This document shows, piece by piece, positions 4,795-41,195 of a DNA stretch of 41,195 nt. Position 1 is the first letter of the stretch; each line of letters starts with the position of its first letter. Under the pieces are notes generated by a model. The model searched no databases. It saw only the letters and a program-made list of their open reading frames with translations, and was not told where the DNA came from. Location: assembly GCA_025352005.1 (NCBI GenBank), contig JANXUE010000101.1:1-41195 (forward strand). The letters run 5' to 3'. This DNA is from Frankiales bacterium. GTDB taxonomy: Bacteria; Actinomycetota; Actinomycetes; Mycobacteriales; SCTD01. The translations under genes and the position numbers were made by a program.

Positions 4795-7409
4795 CGGCCG
4801 GTCCCGGTGAGCTCGAGGAACACGTCTTCCAAGCGGCGCCGCGAGGCCACCCCGAGCACGTCGACGTCGGCTCGGACCAGAGCGGCGACGATGTCGGCGC
4901 GGGACACGTCCCCGAGCTCGATGACGACCGCGTGTCCGTCGACGTGCACCGACAGCACGCCCGGCAGGTCCGTGGCCACCTCGATCGCCCGGTTCCGCTC
5001 CTTGTCCGGCACCTCGACGTGCACCGTGCCGCTGTCGGCGAGCAGGTCGTCGACCGAGCCTTGGGCGACGATCTTGCCCCGGCTCATCACGACGACATGG
5101 GAGCAGGTCTGCTCGACCTCCGACAGCAGGTGGCTGCTGACGAGCACGGTCCGGCCGGTGGCGGCGATGGCCTGCAACACCTCGCGCACCTCCTTGATCT
5201 GCGGCGGGTCCAGGCCGTTGGTGGGTTCGTCGAGGACGAGCAGGTCGGGCTTGCCCAGCATTGCCTGCGCGATCGCGAGCCGCTGTCGCATGCCCTGGCT
5301 GTAGGTCCGCACCGGTCGGTCGACGGCGTCGCCGAGCCCGGCGATCTCGAGCGCCTCCTCGATGAAGGAGCCTTCCATCGACGGGGCGGTCGACGTCCAG
5401 TACAGCCGCAGGTTCTCGGTGCCCGTCAGGTGCGGCAGCAGCCCGGGGCCCTCGATGAACAACCCGACCCTCGACAGCACCGGCGCGCCCGAGACGACCT
5501 CGCGACCGAACAGCTGCACGGAGCCCTCAGACGGCTTGATGAGGCCGGCGAGCATCCGGAGCGTCGTCGTCTTGCCCGCGCCGTTGGGACCGAGCAGCCC
5601 CAGGACCTGGCCGCGCTCCACGACCAGGTCGACCCCGTCGACGGCCCGGAAGCCGTCGGCGTAGCTCTTGGCCAGCCCACGGATGACGACAGGGGGTACG
5701 TCGTCGTCTCCGAGGTCCGGTGGCCGGCGCCTTCGGCGCACCAGGACGTAGGCGGCGACGACGAGCAGCAGCCCGAGCAGCAGGCCGCTCACCAACGCGA
5801 GGTTGCCGTAGCCCTTGGCTCCCGACAGGGCCACCAGCGGCAAGGTCAGTGCCGACGTGGTCACCAACGACACGTCGTACGACGCGGGGGCCAGAGGTCC
5901 GGCGTAGGCCAGGTCGGTCGAGGCGACTGAGACCCGGATCCGGTTGCCCGCAGGGAAAACGTGAGCCAGGGTCGGCAGGTCGAGGGTCACGTCCCGGCCG
6001 GGGCCGCCGACGTCGGTGAGGCGGATCGGGGCGACCTGCCCATTGGGCAGGCGCGCGCTGCCGTCGGGGGCGACATCGAAGACCTTCGCGAACAGCACGG
6101 CCTGGCCGGTGGTGGAGGCGACGTGCACCTTGAGCTGGCCGGCGCCGAGCAGCTCCCGGGTCTGGGCCAGCGGAGCGGTCTGCCAGCGGGCCTCCTGGCC
6201 GGGGATGTCGAAGCCCAGCCCCGAGGCGAGCCCCCCGAGGGAGCCGGCTCCGGGGACGCTGCTGATGGAGGAGGGTCGGCCGCCGGCCGGGTTGGTGACC
6301 GTGACGGAGGAGGCGCCTTCGACAGGGACGGTGCCGACCGGCCGGATCGGCGGCAACGAGGCCGACCTACCAGGGTCGCCGCCACTGCGGTCCCAGCCGA
6401 ACACCGGTCCGGTGCGGACACGGGGGTCCCGACGCAGCCAACGATCAAACCAGGTGGCCGTCATGGCCCGGATGCGGGACTCGCCGGCGGCTCCGAACGG
6501 CACGTCGTGGCCACCCTTCATCCAGACCAGGTGGACCTCGGTTCCCTTGGCCTTCAGCGCACGTGCAGTCGCGAGCGACTCCGACAGGGGGAACAGCGTG
6601 TCGTCCTCGCCCTGGATGAGCAGGGTCGGCGCGGTGATCCGATCCGCAATCGGGCCGGGGCTCGAGGCCCGCAGCAGCGCCTGGTCGGCCGGGGTCGCGA
6701 GGCCGGTCTGCGCGATGCGGGTGTAGGTCTGGCAGACCCGCGCAGCGAACAACCGGCAGCCACCGCCCGACGCGCCAGCGAAAAAGACCGCGGCGTACTG
6801 CGCCTTGAAGACGCCCCCCGGCAGCAGCGAGGACTCGAGACTGTTCCAGGTGATGACGGGGACGACCGCGTCGACCCGCTTGTCGAGGGCGGCACCCATC
6901 AACGAGACGCCGCCGCCGTAGGAGCCACCGACCAGGCCGACCCGCGGGTCGTTGGCGCTGTCGTGCAGGACGTCCGGTCGCTGGGCCAGGTGGTCGATGA
7001 GGCGGCTGAGGTCCGCGACCTCCGCGTCAGGGGCGTCCAGCGCGATCTTGCCGCCGTCCACCGCGAAGTTGAACCCGCGCATCGTCCACGCCAGGACGAC
7101 GTAGCCGCGGTCGGCAAGCGCCCGGGCGTCAGCCGCCACCGAGCCCTTGTTCTGGCCGAAACCGGGCGACACGATGACCGCCGGCGCCGGATGCGCGGCC
7201 GACGCGCCGACCGGCAGGTAGAGCGTCGTCGTCAGCCGCACGGTGCCGGGGAACGTCGGGCCTCCCGGGACGCTCACGTCCTCGTCGATGGTCCGGACGG
7301 TCGACGCGACCGCCGTACCGCCGCGTTGGGTGACCAGCAGGGACCCGAGCGCGAGCATGGCGACCACCGCCGTCGCGAGCCAACGCCCGCGATCGCCTCC
7401 TGCCGCCAT
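4791..7409 (-). CDS. Fusion protein: N-terminal TM + CocE/X-Pro-peptidase-like alpha/beta hydrolase + TM + ABC transporter ATP-binding domain
   Basis: Start MAAGGDRGRWLATAVVAMLALGSLLVTQ. Hydrolase: VIVSPGFGQNKGSVAADARALADRGYVV, GLVGGSYGGGVSLM, TLLIQGEDDTLFP, GGHDVPFG. TM: NLALVSGLLLGLLLVVAAYVLVRRRRR. ATPase: GLLGPNGAGKTTTLRML, YSQGMRQRLAIAQAML, LLVLDEPTNGLDP. The 1129-aa ORF extension upstream of 7409 is spurious. Confidence 0.88.
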   Translation of the reverse strand: MAAGGDRGRWLATAVVAMLALGSLLVTQRGGTAVASTVRTIDEDVSVPGGPTFPGTVRLTTTLYLPVGASAAHPAPAVIVSPGFGQNKGSVAADARALADRGYVVLAWTMRGFNFAVDGGKIALDAPDAEVADLSRLIDHLAQRPDVLHDSANDPRVGLVGGSYGGGVSLMGAALDKRVDAVVPVITWNSLESSLLPGGVFKAQYAAVFFAGASGGGCRLFAARVCQTYTRIAQTGLATPADQALLRASSPGPIADRITAPTLLIQGEDDTLFPLSESLATARALKAKGTEVHLVWMKGGHDVPFGAAGESRIRAMTATWFDRWLRRDPRVRTGPVFGWDRSGGDPGRSASLPPIRPVGTVPVEGASSVTVTNPAGGRPSSISSVPGAGSLGGLASGLGFDIPGQEARWQTAPLAQTRELLGAGQLKVHVASTTGQAVLFAKVFDVAPDGSARLPNGQVAPIRLTDVGGPGRDVTLDLPTLAHVFPAGNRIRVSVASTDLAYAGPLAPASYDVSLVTTSALTLPLVALSGAKGYGNLALVSGLLLGLLLVVAAYVLVRRRRRPPDLGDDDVPPVVIRGLAKSYADGFRAVDGVDLVVERGQVLGLLGPNGAGKTTTLRMLAGLIKPSEGSVQLFGREVVSGAPVLSRVGLFIEGPGLLPHLTGTENLRLYWTSTAPSMEGSFIEEALEIAGLGDAVDRPVRTYSQGMRQRLAIAQAMLGKPDLLVLDEPTNGLDPPQIKEVREVLQAIAATGRTVLVSSHLLSEVEQTCSHVVVMSRGKIVAQGSVDDLLADSGTVHVEVPDKERNRAIEVATDLPGVLSVHVDGHAVVIELGDVSRADIVAALVRADVDVLGVASRRRLEDVFLELTGTGR

Positions 7410-7493
7410 CCGCACCTCCTGTCCAAATCCTAGGCGGCGCGTCGCCGCCGTGCTTGCCAGGGCCTGTCGGACCCCGCACCTACCGTCCGGAGG

Positions 7494-9254
7494 GTGCCGC
7501 TGCAGATGACGCTCGACGAACTCGGGACACCCCTGAGGGACACGGTGTTCGTGGTCGTCGACCTCGAGACCACAGGCGGCTCGCACCTCGACTGCGCCAT
7601 CACCGAGATCGGCGCGGTCAAGGTCTGCGGCGGCGAGGTCCTCGGCGAGTTCCAGACGTTGGTCAACCCCGCGCGGGCCATCCCGCCCTTCATCGCGGTT
7701 CTGACCGGCATCACCGACAGCATGGTCGCCGGTGCCCCGCGCCTTTCGGAGGCCTTGCCGAGCTTCCTCGAGTTCGCCCGCGGGGCGGTCCTGGTCGCGC
7801 ACAACGCCCCGTTCGACCTGGGCTTCCTCAAGGCCGGCTGCGGTCAGCTCGACCTCGAGTGGCCCGGCTTTGACTCCCTCGACACTGCCCGGCTGGCCCG
7901 TCGCGTGCTGACCCGCGACGAGGCCCCCGACTGCAAGCTCTCCTCGCTGAGTCGACTGTTCCGCACGCGCATCACTCCCGACCACCGGGCACTGCACGAC
8001 GCACAGGCCACCGTCGACGTGCTGCACGGCCTCATCGGGCGCCTGGGCAACCTCGGCGTCCACTCGCTCGAGGAGCTGCGCACCTTCTCCTCCCAGGTCA
8101 CCCCGCAGCAGCGCCGCAAGCGGCACCTCGCCGACAGCCTCCCGCACGCCCCCGGAGTCTACCTGTTCCGCGACGTCCAAGGCCGGGTCCTATACGTCGG
8201 GAAGTCCCGCGACCTCCGCTCCCGGGTCCGGACCTATTTCACCGCCTCCGAGATGCGCACCCGGATGGCGGAGATGGTCGGCCTCGCCGACCGCGTCGAC
8301 CCGGTGGTCTGCGCGACCGACCTCGAGGCTGAGATCCGCGAGCTGCGGCTGATCGCCGAGCACCGTCCGCGCTACAACCGGCGCTCGAAGTTCCCTGAGA
8401 AGGCCACGTGGGTCAAGCTGACCGTCGAGGCCTTCCCGCGGCTGTCACTGGTCCGCAAGGTCACCGGCGACGGAGCCGTCTACCTCGGGCCGTTCTCGAG
8501 CGCCCGCACGGCGGAGCTGGTCGTCGCGGCCGTGCACGAGGCCATCCCGCTGCGGCAGTGCACCCGCAAGCTGTCGGTGCGGGTGGCCTCGCCGGCCTGC
8601 GTGCTGGCCGAGATGGGCCGCTGCGGCGCGCCCTGCCTGCTCGGGGAGGGCGAGAGCGTCGAGGCCTACTCGGTTCACGCCCACGCGTTCCGCACCCTGG
8701 TGTCGGCCGACCCGACCGGCGTCGTCGACGCGCTGCAGAGCAAGATTGCCGCGCTGGCCGAGGCGGAGCGCTTCGAGGATGCCGCCTTCCAGCGCGACCG
8801 CCTGGCCGCGCTGGTCAGGTCGGTGGCCTCCCTACAGCGGATGACGGCCCTCACCTCGGTGCCCGAGCTGGTCGCGGCCCGGCCGACGGCCGACCTAGGG
8901 TGGGAGCTGGCCGTCCTGCGCCGCGGACGGCTCGTCGGTTCGGGCGTCCTGCCGCGCGGGCAGGCACCCGGCCCCTTCGTCGACGCGCTGCTCGCCACCG
9001 CCGAGACCGTCCTACCCGAAGCGGGGCCGCTGCCCGCCGCGACCGCGGAGGAGGTGCGCTGCGTGCTGCGCTGGCTCGAGGCTGATGGCGTGCGGCTGGT
9101 CCGGCTCGACGGCGTCCTGGCCTCCCCCGCCCAGGGCGCCGGGCGCCTGCGGTCCTGGCTCGGCGAGCTGCAGTCCGGGCGGGACAGCGTGCGGCCCTTC
9201 GACGACCGCCGGCACCTGCGCCCCCTCGAACGACCGGCCCGCGCCACCGCCTGA
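7494..9254 (+). CDS. DEDDh 3'-5' exonuclease domain fused to GIY-YIG (UvrC/Cho-like) nuclease
   Basis: FVVVDLETTGGSHLDCAITEIGAVKV and LVAHNAPFDLGFL (DnaQ-like), then HAPGVYLFRDVQGRVLYVGKSRDLRSRVRTYF (GIY-YIG). Confidence 0.92.
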   Translation: MPLQMTLDELGTPLRDTVFVVVDLETTGGSHLDCAITEIGAVKVCGGEVLGEFQTLVNPARAIPPFIAVLTGITDSMVAGAPRLSEALPSFLEFARGAVLVAHNAPFDLGFLKAGCGQLDLEWPGFDSLDTARLARRVLTRDEAPDCKLSSLSRLFRTRITPDHRALHDAQATVDVLHGLIGRLGNLGVHSLEELRTFSSQVTPQQRRKRHLADSLPHAPGVYLFRDVQGRVLYVGKSRDLRSRVRTYFTASEMRTRMAEMVGLADRVDPVVCATDLEAEIRELRLIAEHRPRYNRRSKFPEKATWVKLTVEAFPRLSLVRKVTGDGAVYLGPFSSARTAELVVAAVHEAIPLRQCTRKLSVRVASPACVLAEMGRCGAPCLLGEGESVEAYSVHAHAFRTLVSADPTGVVDALQSKIAALAEAERFEDAAFQRDRLAALVRSVASLQRMTALTSVPELVAARPTADLGWELAVLRRGRLVGSGVLPRGQAPGPFVDALLATAETVLPEAGPLPAATAEEVRCVLRWLEADGVRLVRLDGVLASPAQGAGRLRSWLGELQSGRDSVRPFDDRRHLRPLERPARATA

Positions 9255-9261
9255 CAGCGAC

Positions 9262-9286
9262 GCCCGCCGTCACACTGACGGCGGGC
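9262..9286. terminator. Perfect 11-bp hairpin downstream of the exonuclease gene
   Basis: GCCCGCCGTCA-CAC-TGACGGCGGGC directly after the stop codon. No clear U-tract. Confidence 0.6.
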
Positions 9287-9321
9287 TGTAGAACGACGGC
9301 GCTGCTGTCGATGTCCACGAG

Positions 9322-9864
9322 GTGATGCGCTCCCCCGGCCCTGGCGCAGACGCGGTGCGGCGTCGTGACCGCACCGTGCGGGTCGTCCACAGTCTGACCT
9401 TCCTGACGGGGGTCGCTGCCGTTTCCGGCACGGCCGGCCTGGCCTGGGCTGTCGCGCCGCACCCGCCCGCACCGCACCCGCCCGCACCGGGGGCCGTCGC
9501 CCGGAGTCGCGCAGGCTCGCACGTCCCCGCCACGGTCGTCCCTACTCTCGCAGCGCCCCACCGTGGCGTCGGTCCCCCGCCGGCGTCCCTCAGGACCCAC
9601 CGCAGCGGGACCGGCCACCGCCTGACGGCGCCCGGTCGACCTGTTCACGTCGCCTCGGTCCTTCGGACGACAGGGGCTCCCGAAGCCGCCGTCGGTACGC
9701 CCACCGGCCGAGTCGCACCGGTTCCTCCCGCCGTGCCCCTGCGCTCTGTCGCCCCGAGGCCGAGGACCAGACCGCCGGCCACCCCGACCGCCACCCCGAC
9801 GGTCACTCCGACCGCCACCGCGACGGCCACCCCCTCGCCCGTCGCCAGCTCAGGTGCCAGCTGA
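9322..9864 (+). CDS. Putative secreted/anchored Pro/Thr-rich hypothetical protein
   Basis: One TM-like segment (VVHSLTFLTGVAAVSGTAGLAWAV) followed by low-complexity PHPPAPHPPAP and PTATPTVTPTATATATP. Located between supported genes, but coding status is uncertain. Confidence 0.45.
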   Translation: MMRSPGPGADAVRRRDRTVRVVHSLTFLTGVAAVSGTAGLAWAVAPHPPAPHPPAPGAVARSRAGSHVPATVVPTLAAPHRGVGPPPASLRTHRSGTGHRLTAPGRPVHVASVLRTTGAPEAAVGTPTGRVAPVPPAVPLRSVAPRPRTRPPATPTATPTVTPTATATATPSPVASSGAS

Positions 9865-9872
9865 CCTGATCG

Positions 9873-11018
9873 TCAGGGTGTGCCGAACTCGGCGCGCAGG
9901 GACGGACCGTCCTCGTCCAGCAGCGGGGCCGCCGCGCGCCACCCCGCGTCAGGCCACGCCGACAGCTTCACCGGGTTGCCAGGGACGGGGACGCCCCCGG
10001 CGTCGACCACCATCTGCCGCACCGCCGACTGCTCCGAGCCGACCGCCTCCGCCACCCCGCTGATGGGTCCGCAGGGCACGCCCGCGGCCTCCAGGACGGT
10101 CAGCCAGTGCGCAGCCGGAGCGGTCCGCAGCGCACCCTCCAGCAGCCCCTTGAGCACCTCCCGGTCGCCATGGCGACCCACGTTCGTGGCAAACCGTGCG
10201 TCACGCAGGACCGCGGGCAGGCCGAGCGTCGTGCACAGGGCGCCGAACAGCAGGTCGTTGGCGGCGCAGATCGTGATGTCGCGGTCGGCGCAGGCGAAGG
10301 TGTCGAACGGCGCGATCGCGAAGTGGGCGTTGCCTATCCGGCCCGGGTCCACCCCTGTCGCGAGCCACGCGAGGGCAGCGCCTTCCAGAAGGGACACCGT
10401 CGCGTCGTACATCGCGACGTCCAGGTGGGTGCCACGGCCACTGCGCAGCGCGGCGCAGATCCCACCGAACGCATAGAGGCCGGCGGACAGGTCCGCGACG
10501 GGCGAGCCCGGCTTGATCGGCGGGCCGTCGGCCGAGCCGGTGATCGCCATGATGCCGCTCATCCCCTGTACGACGGCGTCGTAGGCGGGTCGCTGCGACC
10601 AGGGACCGGTATGCCCGAAGCCGCTGATCGAGCAGTAGACCAGCGACGGGTGCGCAGCGAGGACGGCGTCGGGGCCGAGACCGAGGCGTTGCATCACACC
10701 CGGTCGGAAGTTCTCCACCAGGACGTCAGCGCGCGCGATCAGCGCTCGGGCAACGGCGAGGTCGGCGGGCAAGCCCAGGTCGAGGGCGATCGACTCCTTC
10801 CCGTGGTTGACGCGCGCGAAGTACATCGAACGCTCGCCCAGGAAAGGCCCGTAGGCGCGCGAATCGTCCCCAATGTCTGGTTTCTCGACCTTGATCACGC
10901 GGGCCCCGAGGTCGGCGAGCATCACCGTCGCGAAGGGGCCGGCGAGGACCCGGGAGAAGTCGACGACGAGCAAACCCTCCAGCGGCCCGCGAACACTGTG
11001 TTTCGACACGCCGCACAT
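9873..11018 (-). CDS. CaiB/BaiF family CoA-transferase
   Basis: GPLEGLLVVDFSRVLAGPFATVMLADLGARVIKVEKPDIGDDSRAYGPF...NHGKESIALDLG...VLVENFRPGVMQRLGLGPD. Confidence 0.93.
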   Translation of the reverse strand: MCGVSKHSVRGPLEGLLVVDFSRVLAGPFATVMLADLGARVIKVEKPDIGDDSRAYGPFLGERSMYFARVNHGKESIALDLGLPADLAVARALIARADVLVENFRPGVMQRLGLGPDAVLAAHPSLVYCSISGFGHTGPWSQRPAYDAVVQGMSGIMAITGSADGPPIKPGSPVADLSAGLYAFGGICAALRSGRGTHLDVAMYDATVSLLEGAALAWLATGVDPGRIGNAHFAIAPFDTFACADRDITICAANDLLFGALCTTLGLPAVLRDARFATNVGRHGDREVLKGLLEGALRTAPAAHWLTVLEAAGVPCGPISGVAEAVGSEQSAVRQMVVDAGGVPVPGNPVKLSAWPDAGWRAAAPLLDEDGPSLRAEFGTP

Positions 11019-11066
11019 CCTGCCCCCAGTGGGAACGCGGGCCCGAAGTGTGGTGTTGTGTTGAGC

Positions 11067-11270
11067 GTGACCGGAACAGTGACACCCCTTGCCCCCGCCA
11101 CTTTGACCCCTGCCGACCGCTGCGATCGATGCGGCGCCCAAGCGCGTGTGCGCGTCGTCCTGGCCTCGGGTGACCTTGTCTTCTGTGCTCACCACGCCAA
11201 GGCCTACGAGGCCAAGCTCCGCGACACTGCCGTCGAGTGGGTCGACGAGCGCGCCCTCGTCCAGCCCTGA
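11067..11270 (+). CDS. DUF7455-type small Cys/His protein
   Basis: VTGTVTPLAPATLTPADRCDRCGAQARVRVVLASGDLVFCAHHAKAYEAKLRDTAVEWVDER. Confidence 0.8.
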   Translation: MTGTVTPLAPATLTPADRCDRCGAQARVRVVLASGDLVFCAHHAKAYEAKLRDTAVEWVDERALVQP

Positions 11271-11287
11271 CGGTCTCGCCCGTCAGG
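11266..11287. terminator. Hairpin between convergent genes
   Basis: CCTGACGG-TCTCGC-CCGTCAGG between the DUF7455-type gene (+) and the ABC ATPase (-). Confidence 0.45.
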
Positions 11288-12068
11288 CGGGTGTCGCCCG
11301 CGCCATCCAACGACCCCCAGATGTCGCGACCTGCAGCGGGATGCCGAAGGCCTGACTGAGCAGCCGCGCGGTGAGGACGTCGTCGATGGGCCCGGCGGCG
11401 ACCACCCGGCCGCGGGACAGCAGCATCGCGTGGGTGGTGCCGACCGGGATCTCCTCGACGTGGTGAGTGACGAGGACCGCCGGTGGGGCGTCAGGGGCGA
11501 TCCACAACCGGGAGAGCATCCGGAGCAGGGCTTCGCGCGCACCGAGGTCGAGGCCGGCGGCCGGCTCGTCGAGCAGGAGCAGCTCTGGGTCGGTCATCAG
11601 GGCCCTGGCGAGCAGCACCCGCTTGCGCTCACCTTCGGACAGCGACCCGAAGCGCCGCTGACTGAACGCACGCAGTCCCACCCGCGCCAGGAGCTCGACG
11701 GCGCGGTCGACGTCGGTGTCGTCGTACTCCTCCTTCCAGCGGCCGAGGACGCCGTGAGCAGCCGTGACCACCACGTCGACGGCCTTCTCCTGCGGAGGGA
11801 CGCGGTCGTTCAGCGCGGACGAGGTCAGGCCCACCCGGGTCCGCAACTCCCCGAGGTTGACCTCACCGAAGCGCTCGCCGAGCAGCGTGACCGAGCCGGA
11901 GGAGGGAAACAGCGACGCGCTCGCGACCGCCAGCAGTGTGGTCTTACCGGCCCCATTCGGGCCGAGCAGCACCCAGCGCTGCCGCTCCTCGACGGTCCAG
12001 TCGATGCCACTGAGCAGCGTGGCCCCGTCACGGACGACAGTGACACCGGACAGGGCGAGGACACTCAC
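11283..12068 (-). CDS. ABC transporter ATP-binding protein
   Basis: VLLGPNGAGKTTLLAVASASLFPSSGSVTLLGERFGEVN...SEGERKRVLLARALMTDPELLLLDEPAAGLD...VLVTHHVEEIP. Confidence 0.92.
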   Translation of the reverse strand: MSVLALSGVTVVRDGATLLSGIDWTVEERQRWVLLGPNGAGKTTLLAVASASLFPSSGSVTLLGERFGEVNLGELRTRVGLTSSALNDRVPPQEKAVDVVVTAAHGVLGRWKEEYDDTDVDRAVELLARVGLRAFSQRRFGSLSEGERKRVLLARALMTDPELLLLDEPAAGLDLGAREALLRMLSRLWIAPDAPPAVLVTHHVEEIPVGTTHAMLLSRGRVVAAGPIDDVLTARLLSQAFGIPLQVATSGGRWMARATPA

Positions 12069-12106
12069 TTCACCGACGCTACCCAGGCGTGGTGCAGGAT
12101 CGTGGG

Positions 12107-12946
12107 ATGGCCTACCGCTGCTTCGACGTCGACATCACCGACGGGGTCGCGCACGTGCGACTGTCCCGCCCGGACGAGCTCAACACGATGGTGCCCGCGT
12201 TCTGGTCCGAGCTCCCCGAGATCGTGACCGGCATCAGCGACTCCGGCAGCGCCCGGGTGGTCGTGATCTCCAGCACCGGCAAGCACTTCAGTGCCGGCAT
12301 GGACCTGTCGGTCTTCGGGGGCACCCACGACGCCGATGCCGAGGCCGGTCGGCGGCAGGCAAAAGTGCGCTCCACGGCCCGCCGGCTGCAGTGGTCGTTC
12401 ACGGCGCTGGAGAAGGCCCGCATGCCGGTGCTCGCAGCCGTGCAGGGCGGGTGCATCGGTGGCGCGGTCGACCTCGTGACGGCCGCGGACTGCCGCTACG
12501 CCAGCGCAGACGCGTTCTTCACCGTGATGGAGATCAACATCGGGATGACCGCCGACGTCGGCACCCTGCAGCGGCTCGGCAAGGTCATCCCCGAGGGGGT
12601 GGCCCGCGAGCTGGCCTACACCGGCCGGCGGATGAGTGCGGCCCGCGCGTTCCAGGTCGGCCTGGTGCAGGAGGTGTACGCCGACCACGAGTCCCTGCTC
12701 GCGGGCGTCCTCGGCACGGCCCGGGAGATCGCCTCGAAGTCGCCGCTCGCGATCTGGGGCACGAAGGTGGCGATGAACTTCGCCCGGGACCACCCGGTCG
12801 ACGCCGGGCTGGACCAGATCGCGACCTGGCAGGCCGGCATGTTCCAACCGGGCGACATGGTCGAGTCGTTCTCGGCGAAGGCCGAGAAGCGCGACCCGGT
12901 CTACCCGGACCTGCTTCCCGAGCCGACGGACGGTGCTGGTCTCTGA
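12107..12946 (+). CDS. Crotonase/enoyl-CoA hydratase family protein
   Basis: VAHVRLSRPDELNTMVPAFWSEL...GKHFSAGMDLSVF...AAVQGGCIGGAVDLVTAADCRYAS. Confidence 0.92.
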   Translation: MAYRCFDVDITDGVAHVRLSRPDELNTMVPAFWSELPEIVTGISDSGSARVVVISSTGKHFSAGMDLSVFGGTHDADAEAGRRQAKVRSTARRLQWSFTALEKARMPVLAAVQGGCIGGAVDLVTAADCRYASADAFFTVMEINIGMTADVGTLQRLGKVIPEGVARELAYTGRRMSAARAFQVGLVQEVYADHESLLAGVLGTAREIASKSPLAIWGTKVAMNFARDHPVDAGLDQIATWQAGMFQPGDMVESFSAKAEKRDPVYPDLLPEPTDGAGL

Positions 12947-38393: not shown

Positions 38394-40181
38394 GTGCCTC
38401 GTGCGCGCACATCCAAAGCCAGCCAACCCGTGGGCAACGGGCCGTCTGTTCTGATCATCTCCGCCGCCATGGGTGCCGGGCACGACGGTGTGGCCTATGA
38501 GCTCCAGCGCCGGCTGCACGCGCGTGGCGCCCAGGCCAAGGTCTTTGACTACCTCGAGATGCTCCCCGGCCGCATGGGTCCGTTTTACCGCGCCTTCTAC
38601 GCCGGGCAGCTGAAGTACGCCCCCAGCTCCTACGAGTGGCTCTACGGCAGGATCGACCGCGGCGTCCTCGCGCCGATCGCCCGTTGGCTCGGACAACAGG
38701 GCAAGTACCGCGTCCGCAAGATCGCCCGGGACTACGACGTGGTGGTCTCGACGTATCCGTTGGGGTGCCAGGCCACGGGTGCTCTGCGCAAGCAGGGCAA
38801 GCTTGCCATCCCGGCCGTGGGCTTCCTCACCGACGTCGACGTGCACGGGCTGTGGCTGCACAAGGGCATCGACAAGAACCTCACCGTCTGGCACGGCAGC
38901 GCCCTCGAGGCGACCCACCGGGTTGGCGTGCCGTCGCAAGCCGTCGGGCCGGTGCTCCCGGACGCGTTCATGACCCCCTCGACGCGCCTCGAGCGCACCG
39001 AGGGTCGCGCGCTCATGGGCGTCGGGAAGGACGAGAACGTCGTCCTGGTTGTCGCCGGTTCGTGGGGGGTCGGCAATATCGCCGCCACCGCCCGTGCGAT
39101 CCGCGATGCCGGAGCCGGCGTGCCGGTCGTGCTCTGCGGACACAACGAGAACCTGCTCCGCGAGCTCGACGAGACCGACGGTGTCATCGCGATCGGCTGG
39201 ACGAAGGAGGTCCGCCGGCTGCTGGCGGCTTCGGACGTCATCGTCCACAACGCCGGTGGCCTGTCCTGCCTGGAAGGCTTCGCGGTCGGCGTGCCCGTCA
39301 TCGGGTACGCCTGCCTGCCGGGTCACGGCCACCGCAATTCCCTTGCCATGCAACTGGCCGGGGTCGCCGCTGACGCCAACACTGTCGGTGAGCTGATCTC
39401 CCACATCCGCCGGTTGGCCCGGACGACCGAGGGCGCCGAGATGGTGCGGCGGGCCCGTGAGCTGTTCTTGGCCGACCCGACCGACGTGTTGCTCGAGCTC
39501 GCTCACGCGCCGGTCTCGATGCCGGTTCGCAGCGGCGCGCGCACCTGGACGACCCGGGTCGCGGCGATCACCGTCGCCGTCCCGGTCACCCTGGGTGGCC
39601 TGTCCTTCGGAGTCGCGCAAGCCACCCAGCACGCCAGCCTCGGCGTCGCCGAGGGCAACGCGGGCGTCTACGTCGCCGCGCTCGTGGACCACACCCAGGC
39701 CAGCACCCCCTCCGTCGTGCGCTCGCTCCGGTCGAACGGCGTGTCGGCAGCCGTCGGCGTCGGGACCGCAGCGCCGACCCCCGCCGACGTACACGCCCTC
39801 GTCCTGGCGGGTGTGACGGTCGTCGGCACCGACGAGGGGCTGCGCAGCCGCAACCCGCGCCGGCTTCGCGACACGATGACGGCCGCTGCTGCGGCCGTCG
39901 CGGCCACCAACGAGCCAGCCCCCAAGGTCGTCTGCCTGCGCACCCCCGGCCTGGTCGAGAAGATCACCGCCTGGGAGCACGGGGTCCAGCTCGCACTCCC
40001 GCAGCGGGTCCTGCTGGGAGGCCAGCTACCCACCAGCCTGCGCGAAGGCGACGAGATCGTCCTCGACGAGCGCGGCCGCACCGCGGTGCAGGTCGAGCAG
40101 GACCTCGCGTCGCTGTCGACCTTCGTCGCCGGCCACAGCCTGCCCCAGCAGCCCATGCGGGCCCTGTGGCACAGCATCTGA
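38394..40181 (+). CDS. MGDG-synthase/processive diacylglycerol glycosyltransferase-like GT + TM + degenerate NodB-like C-terminal domain
   Basis: VLIISAAMGAGHDGVAYELQRRL...DVVVSTYPLGCQATGALRK...IGWTKEVRRLLAASDVIVHNAGGLSCLEGFAVGVPVIGYACLPGHGHRNS; TM TRVAAITVAVPVTLGGLSFGVAQ; C-terminal domain aligns to the neighbouring NodB protein. Confidence 0.85.
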   Translation: MPRARTSKASQPVGNGPSVLIISAAMGAGHDGVAYELQRRLHARGAQAKVFDYLEMLPGRMGPFYRAFYAGQLKYAPSSYEWLYGRIDRGVLAPIARWLGQQGKYRVRKIARDYDVVVSTYPLGCQATGALRKQGKLAIPAVGFLTDVDVHGLWLHKGIDKNLTVWHGSALEATHRVGVPSQAVGPVLPDAFMTPSTRLERTEGRALMGVGKDENVVLVVAGSWGVGNIAATARAIRDAGAGVPVVLCGHNENLLRELDETDGVIAIGWTKEVRRLLAASDVIVHNAGGLSCLEGFAVGVPVIGYACLPGHGHRNSLAMQLAGVAADANTVGELISHIRRLARTTEGAEMVRRARELFLADPTDVLLELAHAPVSMPVRSGARTWTTRVAAITVAVPVTLGGLSFGVAQATQHASLGVAEGNAGVYVAALVDHTQASTPSVVRSLRSNGVSAAVGVGTAAPTPADVHALVLAGVTVVGTDEGLRSRNPRRLRDTMTAAAAAVAATNEPAPKVVCLRTPGLVEKITAWEHGVQLALPQRVLLGGQLPTSLREGDEIVLDERGRTAVQVEQDLASLSTFVAGHSLPQQPMRALWHSI

Positions 40182-40218
40182 CCATGTCGCAGCGTCTGAC
40201 CATGTCGCAGCGTCTGAC
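40179..40218. repeat. 18-bp tandem duplication TGACCATGTCGCAGCGTC x2
   Basis: Perfect copies at 40179-40196 and 40197-40214, then TGACC. Confidence 0.95.
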
Positions 40219-40224
40219 CGCCTG

Positions 40225-40941
40225 ATGCTGGGCAAGCTGCTGCTCTTCGGCGGGCTGGCATCGGCTGCCGTCCAGGCCGCCCCCCTGGCAACGTTCCTGC
40301 CCACCACCAAGCGGCTGTTCCCCACCCTGAACGGCAAGGGCCGCCCGGGGCATGTGGCGTTGACCTTCGACGATGGGCCCGACGAGCAGAGCACCCCGCG
40401 GTTTCTTGCGCTGCTCGAGCAGCTCGACGTGCAGGCGACCTTCTTCCTGCTCGGACAGATGTGCGAGCGCTACCCGTCGCTGGCCCGGCAGATGGTTGAT
40501 GGTGGCCATGAGGTGGCCGTCCACTCCTGGGACCACCGCAACCACCTGCGCAACCCACCCGGTCGACGCACCGCCGAGCAGCTCGAACGGACCGCGGAGA
40601 TCATTGAGGCGCAGAGCGGCGTCCGCCCGGTGTGGTTCCGTCCGCCGTACGGCGCGCTGACGACCGCCGATGTCGTCGCCGCCCGCGCCCTCGGGCTACA
40701 GACGGTCCTGTGGACTGCCTGGGGCCAGGACTGGCAACGCACCTGTACGCCCGCGTCGGTGTTGCGGGAGGTCACGGCCGGGGTGGTCGACGGCGGGACG
40801 GTGCTGCTGCACGACTCCGACTGCACGTCCGAGCCCGGCTCGTGGCGGGCCACCCTCGGAGCACTGCCGATGCTCGTGGACTGGTGCCGCGAACGTGGCC
40901 TCGATGTGGGCACCGTCGGGGCGCACGGCCTGACAGCATGA
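40225..40941 (+). CDS. Polysaccharide deacetylase (NodB homology domain)
   Basis: HVALTFDDGPDEQSTPRFLALLEQLDVQATFFLLG...GGHEVAVHSWDHRNH...VWFRPPYGALT...GGTVLLHDSD. Confidence 0.94.
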   Translation: MLGKLLLFGGLASAAVQAAPLATFLPTTKRLFPTLNGKGRPGHVALTFDDGPDEQSTPRFLALLEQLDVQATFFLLGQMCERYPSLARQMVDGGHEVAVHSWDHRNHLRNPPGRRTAEQLERTAEIIEAQSGVRPVWFRPPYGALTTADVVAARALGLQTVLWTAWGQDWQRTCTPASVLREVTAGVVDGGTVLLHDSDCTSEPGSWRATLGALPMLVDWCRERGLDVGTVGAHGLTA

Positions 40942-41195
40942 GCGGAGTTGCCAGCGCGGTCGCAGCGGCCCTCGGGGCCGCAACGCTGTTCGGGCTCGCC
41001 TCGGCGCTGCAGCACCAGCAGGCCAACGAGGTCGAGGCCTCGGTGAGCCCCGGCCTGCTCGTCACCCTCGCCAAACGGCCACTGTGGGTCCTCGGCGGGG
41101 TCGTCGACCTCGGCGCCGTCGCCCTGCAGGCCCTCGCCCTTGGCCTGGGTGCTGTCGCGCTGGTCCAGACGCTCCTGGTCTCCGGCCTGCCGCTC
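40938..41195 (+). CDS. DMT/EamA-like multi-TM membrane protein (partial, runs off the right edge)
   Basis: MSGVASAVAAALGAATLFGLASALQHQQANEVEASVSPGLLVTLAKRPLWVLGGVVDLGAVALQALALGLGAVALVQTLLVSGLPL. ATGA overlap with the deacetylase stop. Confidence 0.8.
   Translation, partial: MSGVASAVAAALGAATLFGLASALQHQQANEVEASVSPGLLVTLAKRPLWVLGGVVDLGAVALQALALGLGAVALVQTLLVSGLPL

Follow-up and report, generated by a model that had tools for sequence, protein, structure and literature searches.

The window, meaning the whole stretch of 41,195 nucleotides analysed here, is an entire contig of the fragmented 3.07-Mb genome of a Frankiales bacterium. Towards its end three genes follow one another on the forward strand, the first of which encodes a glycosyltransferase (GT) with a transmembrane (TM) helix and a C-terminal tail. 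The features of this locus are as follows.

38394..40181, + strand: GT-TM-pseudoNodB protein, 595 aa, GTG start, stop at 40181
38445..39506, + strand: GT-B catalytic part of this protein, residues about 19-372 (AlphaFold; placed on the cytoplasmic side by prediction)
39546..39632, + strand: TM helix, residues 386-414 (AlphaFold helix of low pLDDT; hydrophobicity from the sequence)
39657..40178, + strand: degenerate NodB/CE4 domain, residues 424-593, catalytic motifs lost (hhalign, AlphaFold, Foldseek)
40225..40941, + strand: intact NodB polysaccharide deacetylase, 238 aa (PF01522), with an N-terminal hydrophobic anchor or signal
40938..41195, + strand: first 86 codons of a DMT-family membrane protein, overlapping the NodB gene by 4 nt and cut by the contig end

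The GTG start of the GT gene is matched in position by an ATG in the relative L085, and in the AlphaFold model of the full-length protein the GT-B part, the TM helix and the alpha/beta tail form separate units. Two Pfam families recognize the catalytic part above cut-off, Glycos_transf_1 and MGDG_synth (31.8 bits against 25). Its nearest relatives of solved structure are plant MGD1 (4wyi, E 3e-9) and, more closely, the UgtP-type processive diacylglycerol beta-glucosyltransferase (PDB 9wde, E 9.5e-17). Its best NCBIfam model, diglucosyl diacylglycerol synthase, gives 104.8 bits, far below the equivalog cut-off of 500. By family the GT is UgtP/MGD1-like, with transfer to diacylglycerol as a prediction only. 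Since the tail follows a TM helix with two Arg immediately ahead of it, it is most likely extracytoplasmic, as had been proposed in the first-pass annotation of this DNA; the topology is read from the sequence.

The NodB protein encoded next matches PF01522 at 120.6 bits (E 5e-35) and keeps all five motifs, with TFDD, HSWDH, RPPYG and LLHD present. The third gene is complete in L085, where its product scores 96 bits on the NCBIfam model DMT_1; by analogy we regard this protein as a putative glycolipid exporter.

The first-pass annotation had aligned the tail by eye to the neighbouring NodB protein and had held that a non-NodB fold would speak against this reading. The predicted fold is that of NodB. 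Modelled alone, the tail domain (~170 residues) reached a pLDDT of 93.2 and a pTM of 0.89 in AlphaFold, and a Foldseek search of this model against the PDB returned CE4/NodB deacetylases throughout ranks 1-7; matches included 2cc0 (E 1.3e-5) and the CE4 pseudoenzyme BA3943 (7bkf/6hm9; E about 2e-4, TM 0.69). Primary sequence gave much fainter signals. A single-sequence comparison of the window tail with the window NodB found nothing above chance (P 0.45), a Pfam scan of the window protein found no NodB match in the tail, and a search of PHROGs gave no match. One of 15 tails (L042) approaches PF01522, at 18.2 bits and E 0.0025, below the gathering cut-off of 23.1, and the best match of the tail profile among PDB sequences is a CE4 deacetylase, 2c71, at a weak E of 0.0097.

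Because the single window sequences do not align above chance, the case for homology rests on relatives. In hhalign, the profile of 15 tails aligns with that of their neighbouring NodB proteins end to end over 168 columns (P 2.9e-5), while reversed and column-shuffled control profiles gave P 0.18-0.9 and a control comparison of the tail with the GT domain gave a short match of 28 columns (P 0.008). When 398 genomes of the phylum were searched with the tail profile, most matches were weak and several were ordinary NodBs, but the search yielded a bridge from another class, L190 (also recorded as L067). Its GT tail matches the tail profile and, against that of the active neighbouring NodBs, scores 40-41 bits (E 3.4e-13 at 41 bits). 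L191, 70% identical to L190, is a second case of this type, and the tail of L199, from a further family-level group, matches the tail profile as well. Homology was settled when these three were added: the 18 tails match neighbouring NodBs at P 2.5e-10 (probability 96.8%) and NodBs unlinked to GTs at P 3.1e-9. By predicted fold and profile alignment, then, the tail is a NodB/CE4 homology domain, and the by-eye reading of it was right.

The profile alignment also bears out the claim that the metal-binding and catalytic motifs are gone. Both metal His and the motif-5 His are absent from all 15 aligned tails, so that none has the Asp-His-His metal triad together with the motif-5 His. Motif 2 (HSxxH) has become TDEGL, ADTGV, AGGGT and similar, and motif 5 (LLHD) has become VLDE, VLDL or LVEC, in 15/15 tails each; motif 1 (TFDD) corresponds to AALV with an ambiguity of one residue. 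Three of the blocks matched by eye coincide with the profile alignment (VYVAALVD with VALTFDD, TDEGL with HSWDH, VLDERG with LLHDSD), the first with that same ambiguity, since TFDDGP aligns to AALVDH; the pairing of RPPYG with RTPG is absent from it. Judged by its motifs, the tail is a homologue of the CE4 domain and no CE4 enzyme. Across the 15 tails only two columns are invariant, L24 and G52 (numbering of the first sequence), too few to mark out a conserved binding surface.

The gene neighbourhood was read from about 75 loci, using a simple gene caller based on codon usage; it fails on lower-GC loci, and absences there were left uncounted. Tailed GTs were located in eight family-level groups belonging to at least two classes, 19 in all, and every one has an intact NodB gene directly 3' (19/19). 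Within the class of the window the NodB gene is directly 3' on the same strand in 16 of 16 cases and the DMT gene is third in 15, the sixteenth locus being cut by a contig end. The distant tailed cases L190, L191 and L199 likewise have NodB directly 3' (3/3); in L190 and L191 a GT-C-like membrane protein stands third in place of the DMT protein. With 3-6 NodB genes per genome of about 3-4 Mb in the genus, chance would place GT and NodB side by side with a probability below one percent per case. GT, NodB and DMT genes thus belong together as a conserved unit; the first-pass annotation had proposed looking for their co-occurrence across Actinobacteria. It had also held that homologues combining a tail-less GT with loss of linkage to the deacetylase would count against it. 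Tail-less GTs are indeed common, but the linkage persists among them, 25 of 37 close tail-less relatives adjoining a NodB gene. With so many NodB-linked GTs lacking it, the tail is inessential to the pathway.

The tail diverges faster than its neighbours. Between species of the genus, whose members include the MAG Frankiales bacterium RYN_111 (L015), it is 48-76% identical, against 77-86% for the GT domain. Its pN/pS lies at 0.32-0.91 except for one pair at 1.05, where NodB stands at 0.1-0.4 and the GT domain at 0.2-0.4; these ratios are rough, with synonymous sites partly saturated and strongly GC-biased. Overall the rate of evolution of the tail is roughly double that of GT and NodB. All 19 copies nevertheless keep an open frame, and the tail is mostly under purifying selection, less constrained than GT or NodB.

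On the GT tree, tailed GTs occur at three places among the class, which implies at least three changes. Since the tails are clearly homologous to one another, an old gain followed by losses seems likelier than repeated gains. In the Streptomyces-like loci L102 and L158 the GT has a TM segment followed by a short, partly His-rich outer tail replacing the pseudo-NodB; these short tails are possible remnants of tail loss. The comparisons give no support to the idea that the tail is a recent duplicate of the adjacent NodB gene: the tails show no preference for the neighbouring NodB family, and the 15-tail profile matches other NodBs of the same genus slightly better (P 2.1e-6) than the neighbouring ones (P 2.9e-5).

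A functional model can be drawn from HexSDF of Clostridioides difficile, where formation of aminohexosyl-hexosyl-diradylglycerol requires a GT of MGDG-synthase type together with an MprF-like flippase and a polysaccharide deacetylase; lipidomics showed that an acetylated intermediate accumulates without the deacetylase, and the authors placed deacetylation outside the cell (PMC10128005). Following this precedent, the cytoplasmic GT, of MGDG-synthase/UgtP type, would add an N-acetylhexosamine to a membrane lipid, the acceptor probably being diacylglycerol or a glycosyl-diacylglycerol; the DMT protein would turn the glycolipid over to the outer leaflet, where the membrane-anchored NodB enzyme would then deacetylate it. 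The pseudo-NodB, held outside by the TM helix of the GT, would most likely dock the NodB enzyme or hand on its substrate. The synthase would in this way retain the active NodB beside it, perhaps along with the DMT protein, and synthesis, export and deacetylation would be coupled through this tether. We give such a synthase-flippase-deacetylase line for an amino-sugar glycolipid, with the tail as docking or substrate-handing module, a probability of about 0.5. Within it, the role of the pseudo-NodB in docking the active NodB or presenting substrate to it is a guess. The pathway proposal is weakened by HexF being MprF-like and not a DMT protein, and the docking reading by the rapid evolution of the tail, with one pair at pN/pS 1.05.

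Gene fusions in the family fit a lipid-linked sugar chemistry. L090 (827 aa) and L092 (798 aa) are PAP2_3-GT-TM-pseudoNodB proteins, with a PAP2_3 phosphatase/phosphotransferase domain at the N-terminus, and in L142 a GtrA/DPMS TM domain is fused N-terminally to a tail-less GT of the family, followed by NodB. A bolder version of the model, which we find conceivable while judging the odds to be against it, is that the pseudo-deacetylase built into the synthase acts across the membrane, recruiting its catalytic paralogue and activating it; the synthase would then make up one transmembrane complex with NodB and the DMT flippase, to which PAP2 is also fused in two lineages.

Several related loci were noted in passing. 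L104 carries, at 5746-12462, genes for a DMT protein, a GT2 resembling polyprenol-phosphate sugar synthases, the GT, NodB, a multi-spanning membrane protein and a GT4; this row, named by eye, is possibly a larger lipid-glycan locus. Near the GT-NodB pairs of L098, L100 and L101 we recognized, again by eye, genes resembling response regulators and histidine kinases, an arrangement that recalls HexRK beside hexSDF. More distant GT paralogues of MGDG type, 700-940 aa long, occur in L110, L114, L116, L118-L124 and L140; that of L110 has a WS/DGAT acyltransferase domain (Pfam), and others that read alike carry HHxxxDG-type motifs. They often lie beside a DMT gene without NodB, and may be acyl-glycolipid synthases.

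Different roles for the tail can be weighed against docking. It might bind a cell-wall glycan, or the glycolipid after export, and so regulate or localize its own GT, as product sensor or anchor, without touching NodB. Its covalent attachment to the GT, the glycan-binding nature of CE4 folds and its fast divergence, such as ligand-tuned surfaces can show, are all consistent with this; the active NodB gene next door in 19/19 loci argues instead for a shared task, although weakly, with tail-less GTs often having that neighbour too. We consider a sensor or anchor somewhat unlikely. The patchy distribution, with its three or more changes on the GT tree, the fast evolution and the retention of just a TM segment and a short tail in L102 and L158 would equally suit a functionless remnant of an old GT-NodB fusion, whose fused NodB decayed while the free NodB sufficed. 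Against this, all 19 copies, spread over eight family-level groups and no fewer than two classes, have kept open frames, the fold is predicted at pLDDT 93, and nearly all pairs have pN/pS below 1; we think a remnant quite unlikely. That the tail has a catalytic activity of a different kind seems highly improbable: CE4 variants can stay active after losing a canonical residue, the precedent being SwsB, a muramic-lactam cyclase in which a catalytic residue is mutated (PMC12444981), but here neither the His ligands nor the motif-5 His survive in any of the 15 tails, and L24 and G52 as sole invariant positions do not look like an active site. For the role of the tail, docking or substrate handing therefore remains our first choice, self-regulation or anchoring comes second and a remnant third.

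A separate question is the identity of the lipid, which might be polyprenyl-phosphate and not diacylglycerol. In the Arn route a NodB-type deformylase and a DMT-class flippase serve a lipid-linked amino sugar, and ArnC is a GT2 that acts on undecaprenyl phosphate. The genes studied here could by this comparison form an ArnC-ArnD-ArnE/F-like route that delivers an amino sugar to a cell-wall polymer, the DMT-type protein and the NodB-type deacetylase resembling ArnE/F and ArnD; the GtrA/DPMS fusion in L142, the GT2 ahead of the GT in L104 and the GT-C-like gene third in L190 and L191 point the same way. The GT itself, on the other hand, is UgtP/MGD1-like and not of the GT2 type of ArnC, and the window NodB scores 19.4 bits on the ArnD equivalog NF011923 (NCBIfam), against a cut-off of 382. 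We hold a polyprenyl-phosphate carrier to be unlikely, and retain diacylglycerol or a glycosyl-diacylglycerol as the probable acceptor.

The unit offers a pseudoenzyme carried in one polypeptide with the enzyme that precedes its own active paralogue by one step. If docking is true, this would be a simple, testable case of substrate channelling across a membrane. Searches of the open-licence PMC literature found no description of a pseudo-deacetylase fused through a TM helix to a synthase or of a PAP2-GT-pseudoNodB protein, and nothing direct on fused GT-deacetylases, actinobacterial glycolipid deacetylases or glucosaminyl diacylglycerol.

Compared with systems already known, the unit shares with the Arn route its NodB-type enzyme and DMT-class flippase, and differs from it in the GT and in having a NodB that is no ArnD by NF011923. 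The GT-B domain is homologous to UgtP and MGD1 (9wde, 4wyi) over about 200-255 residues, whereas the protein here adds the C-terminal TM helix and pseudo-NodB and stays under the NCBIfam equivalog cut-off. BA3943 of Bacillus anthracis (7bkf), deposited as a CE4 pseudoenzyme, likewise has the NodB fold, but it is a stand-alone deacetylase-like protein, unfused to a glycosyltransferase; it departs from the canonical sequence at motif 1, and BA0150 at motifs 1 and 2 (PMC6115787), whereas the tail lacks motif 5 as well as motifs 1 and 2.

The suggestion that the three genes form an undescribed unit was too strong, as two characterized systems, both with lipidomics, share the plan. In Pseudomonas aeruginosa the synthase-deacetylase-flippase operon gpgSDF makes a glucosaminyl lipid (PMC12713373); it corresponds loosely, with a GT of family 4 (cd03814), a deacetylase of COG3233 and a flippase of the AglD2/YbhN type (COG0392), and with GpgS and GpgD predicted to be cytoplasmic. 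HexSDF is closer: in both, one three-gene operon holds an MGDG-type GT, a polysaccharide deacetylase and a flippase gene (a role that the DMT protein would fill), and both are proposed to synthesize the lipid first, then export it and deacetylate it outside. The likeness of HexS and HexD to the GT and NodB described here is one of shared Pfam annotations. The two systems differ in the third gene, MprF-like for HexF and DMT_1 in the actinobacterial unit, and the available portions of PMC10128005 make no mention of a NodB-like tail on HexS. Thus the three-gene plan is already known, and the fused pseudo-deacetylase is the element for which we found no description. The aminohexosyl lipid of C. 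difficile affects the response to daptomycin and bacitracin (PMC10128005), so its actinobacterial counterpart may matter for envelope charge. With the conserved unit reported here, the C. difficile plan of synthase, deacetylase and flippase for making amino-sugar membrane lipids would be shared by a wide range of Actinobacteria.
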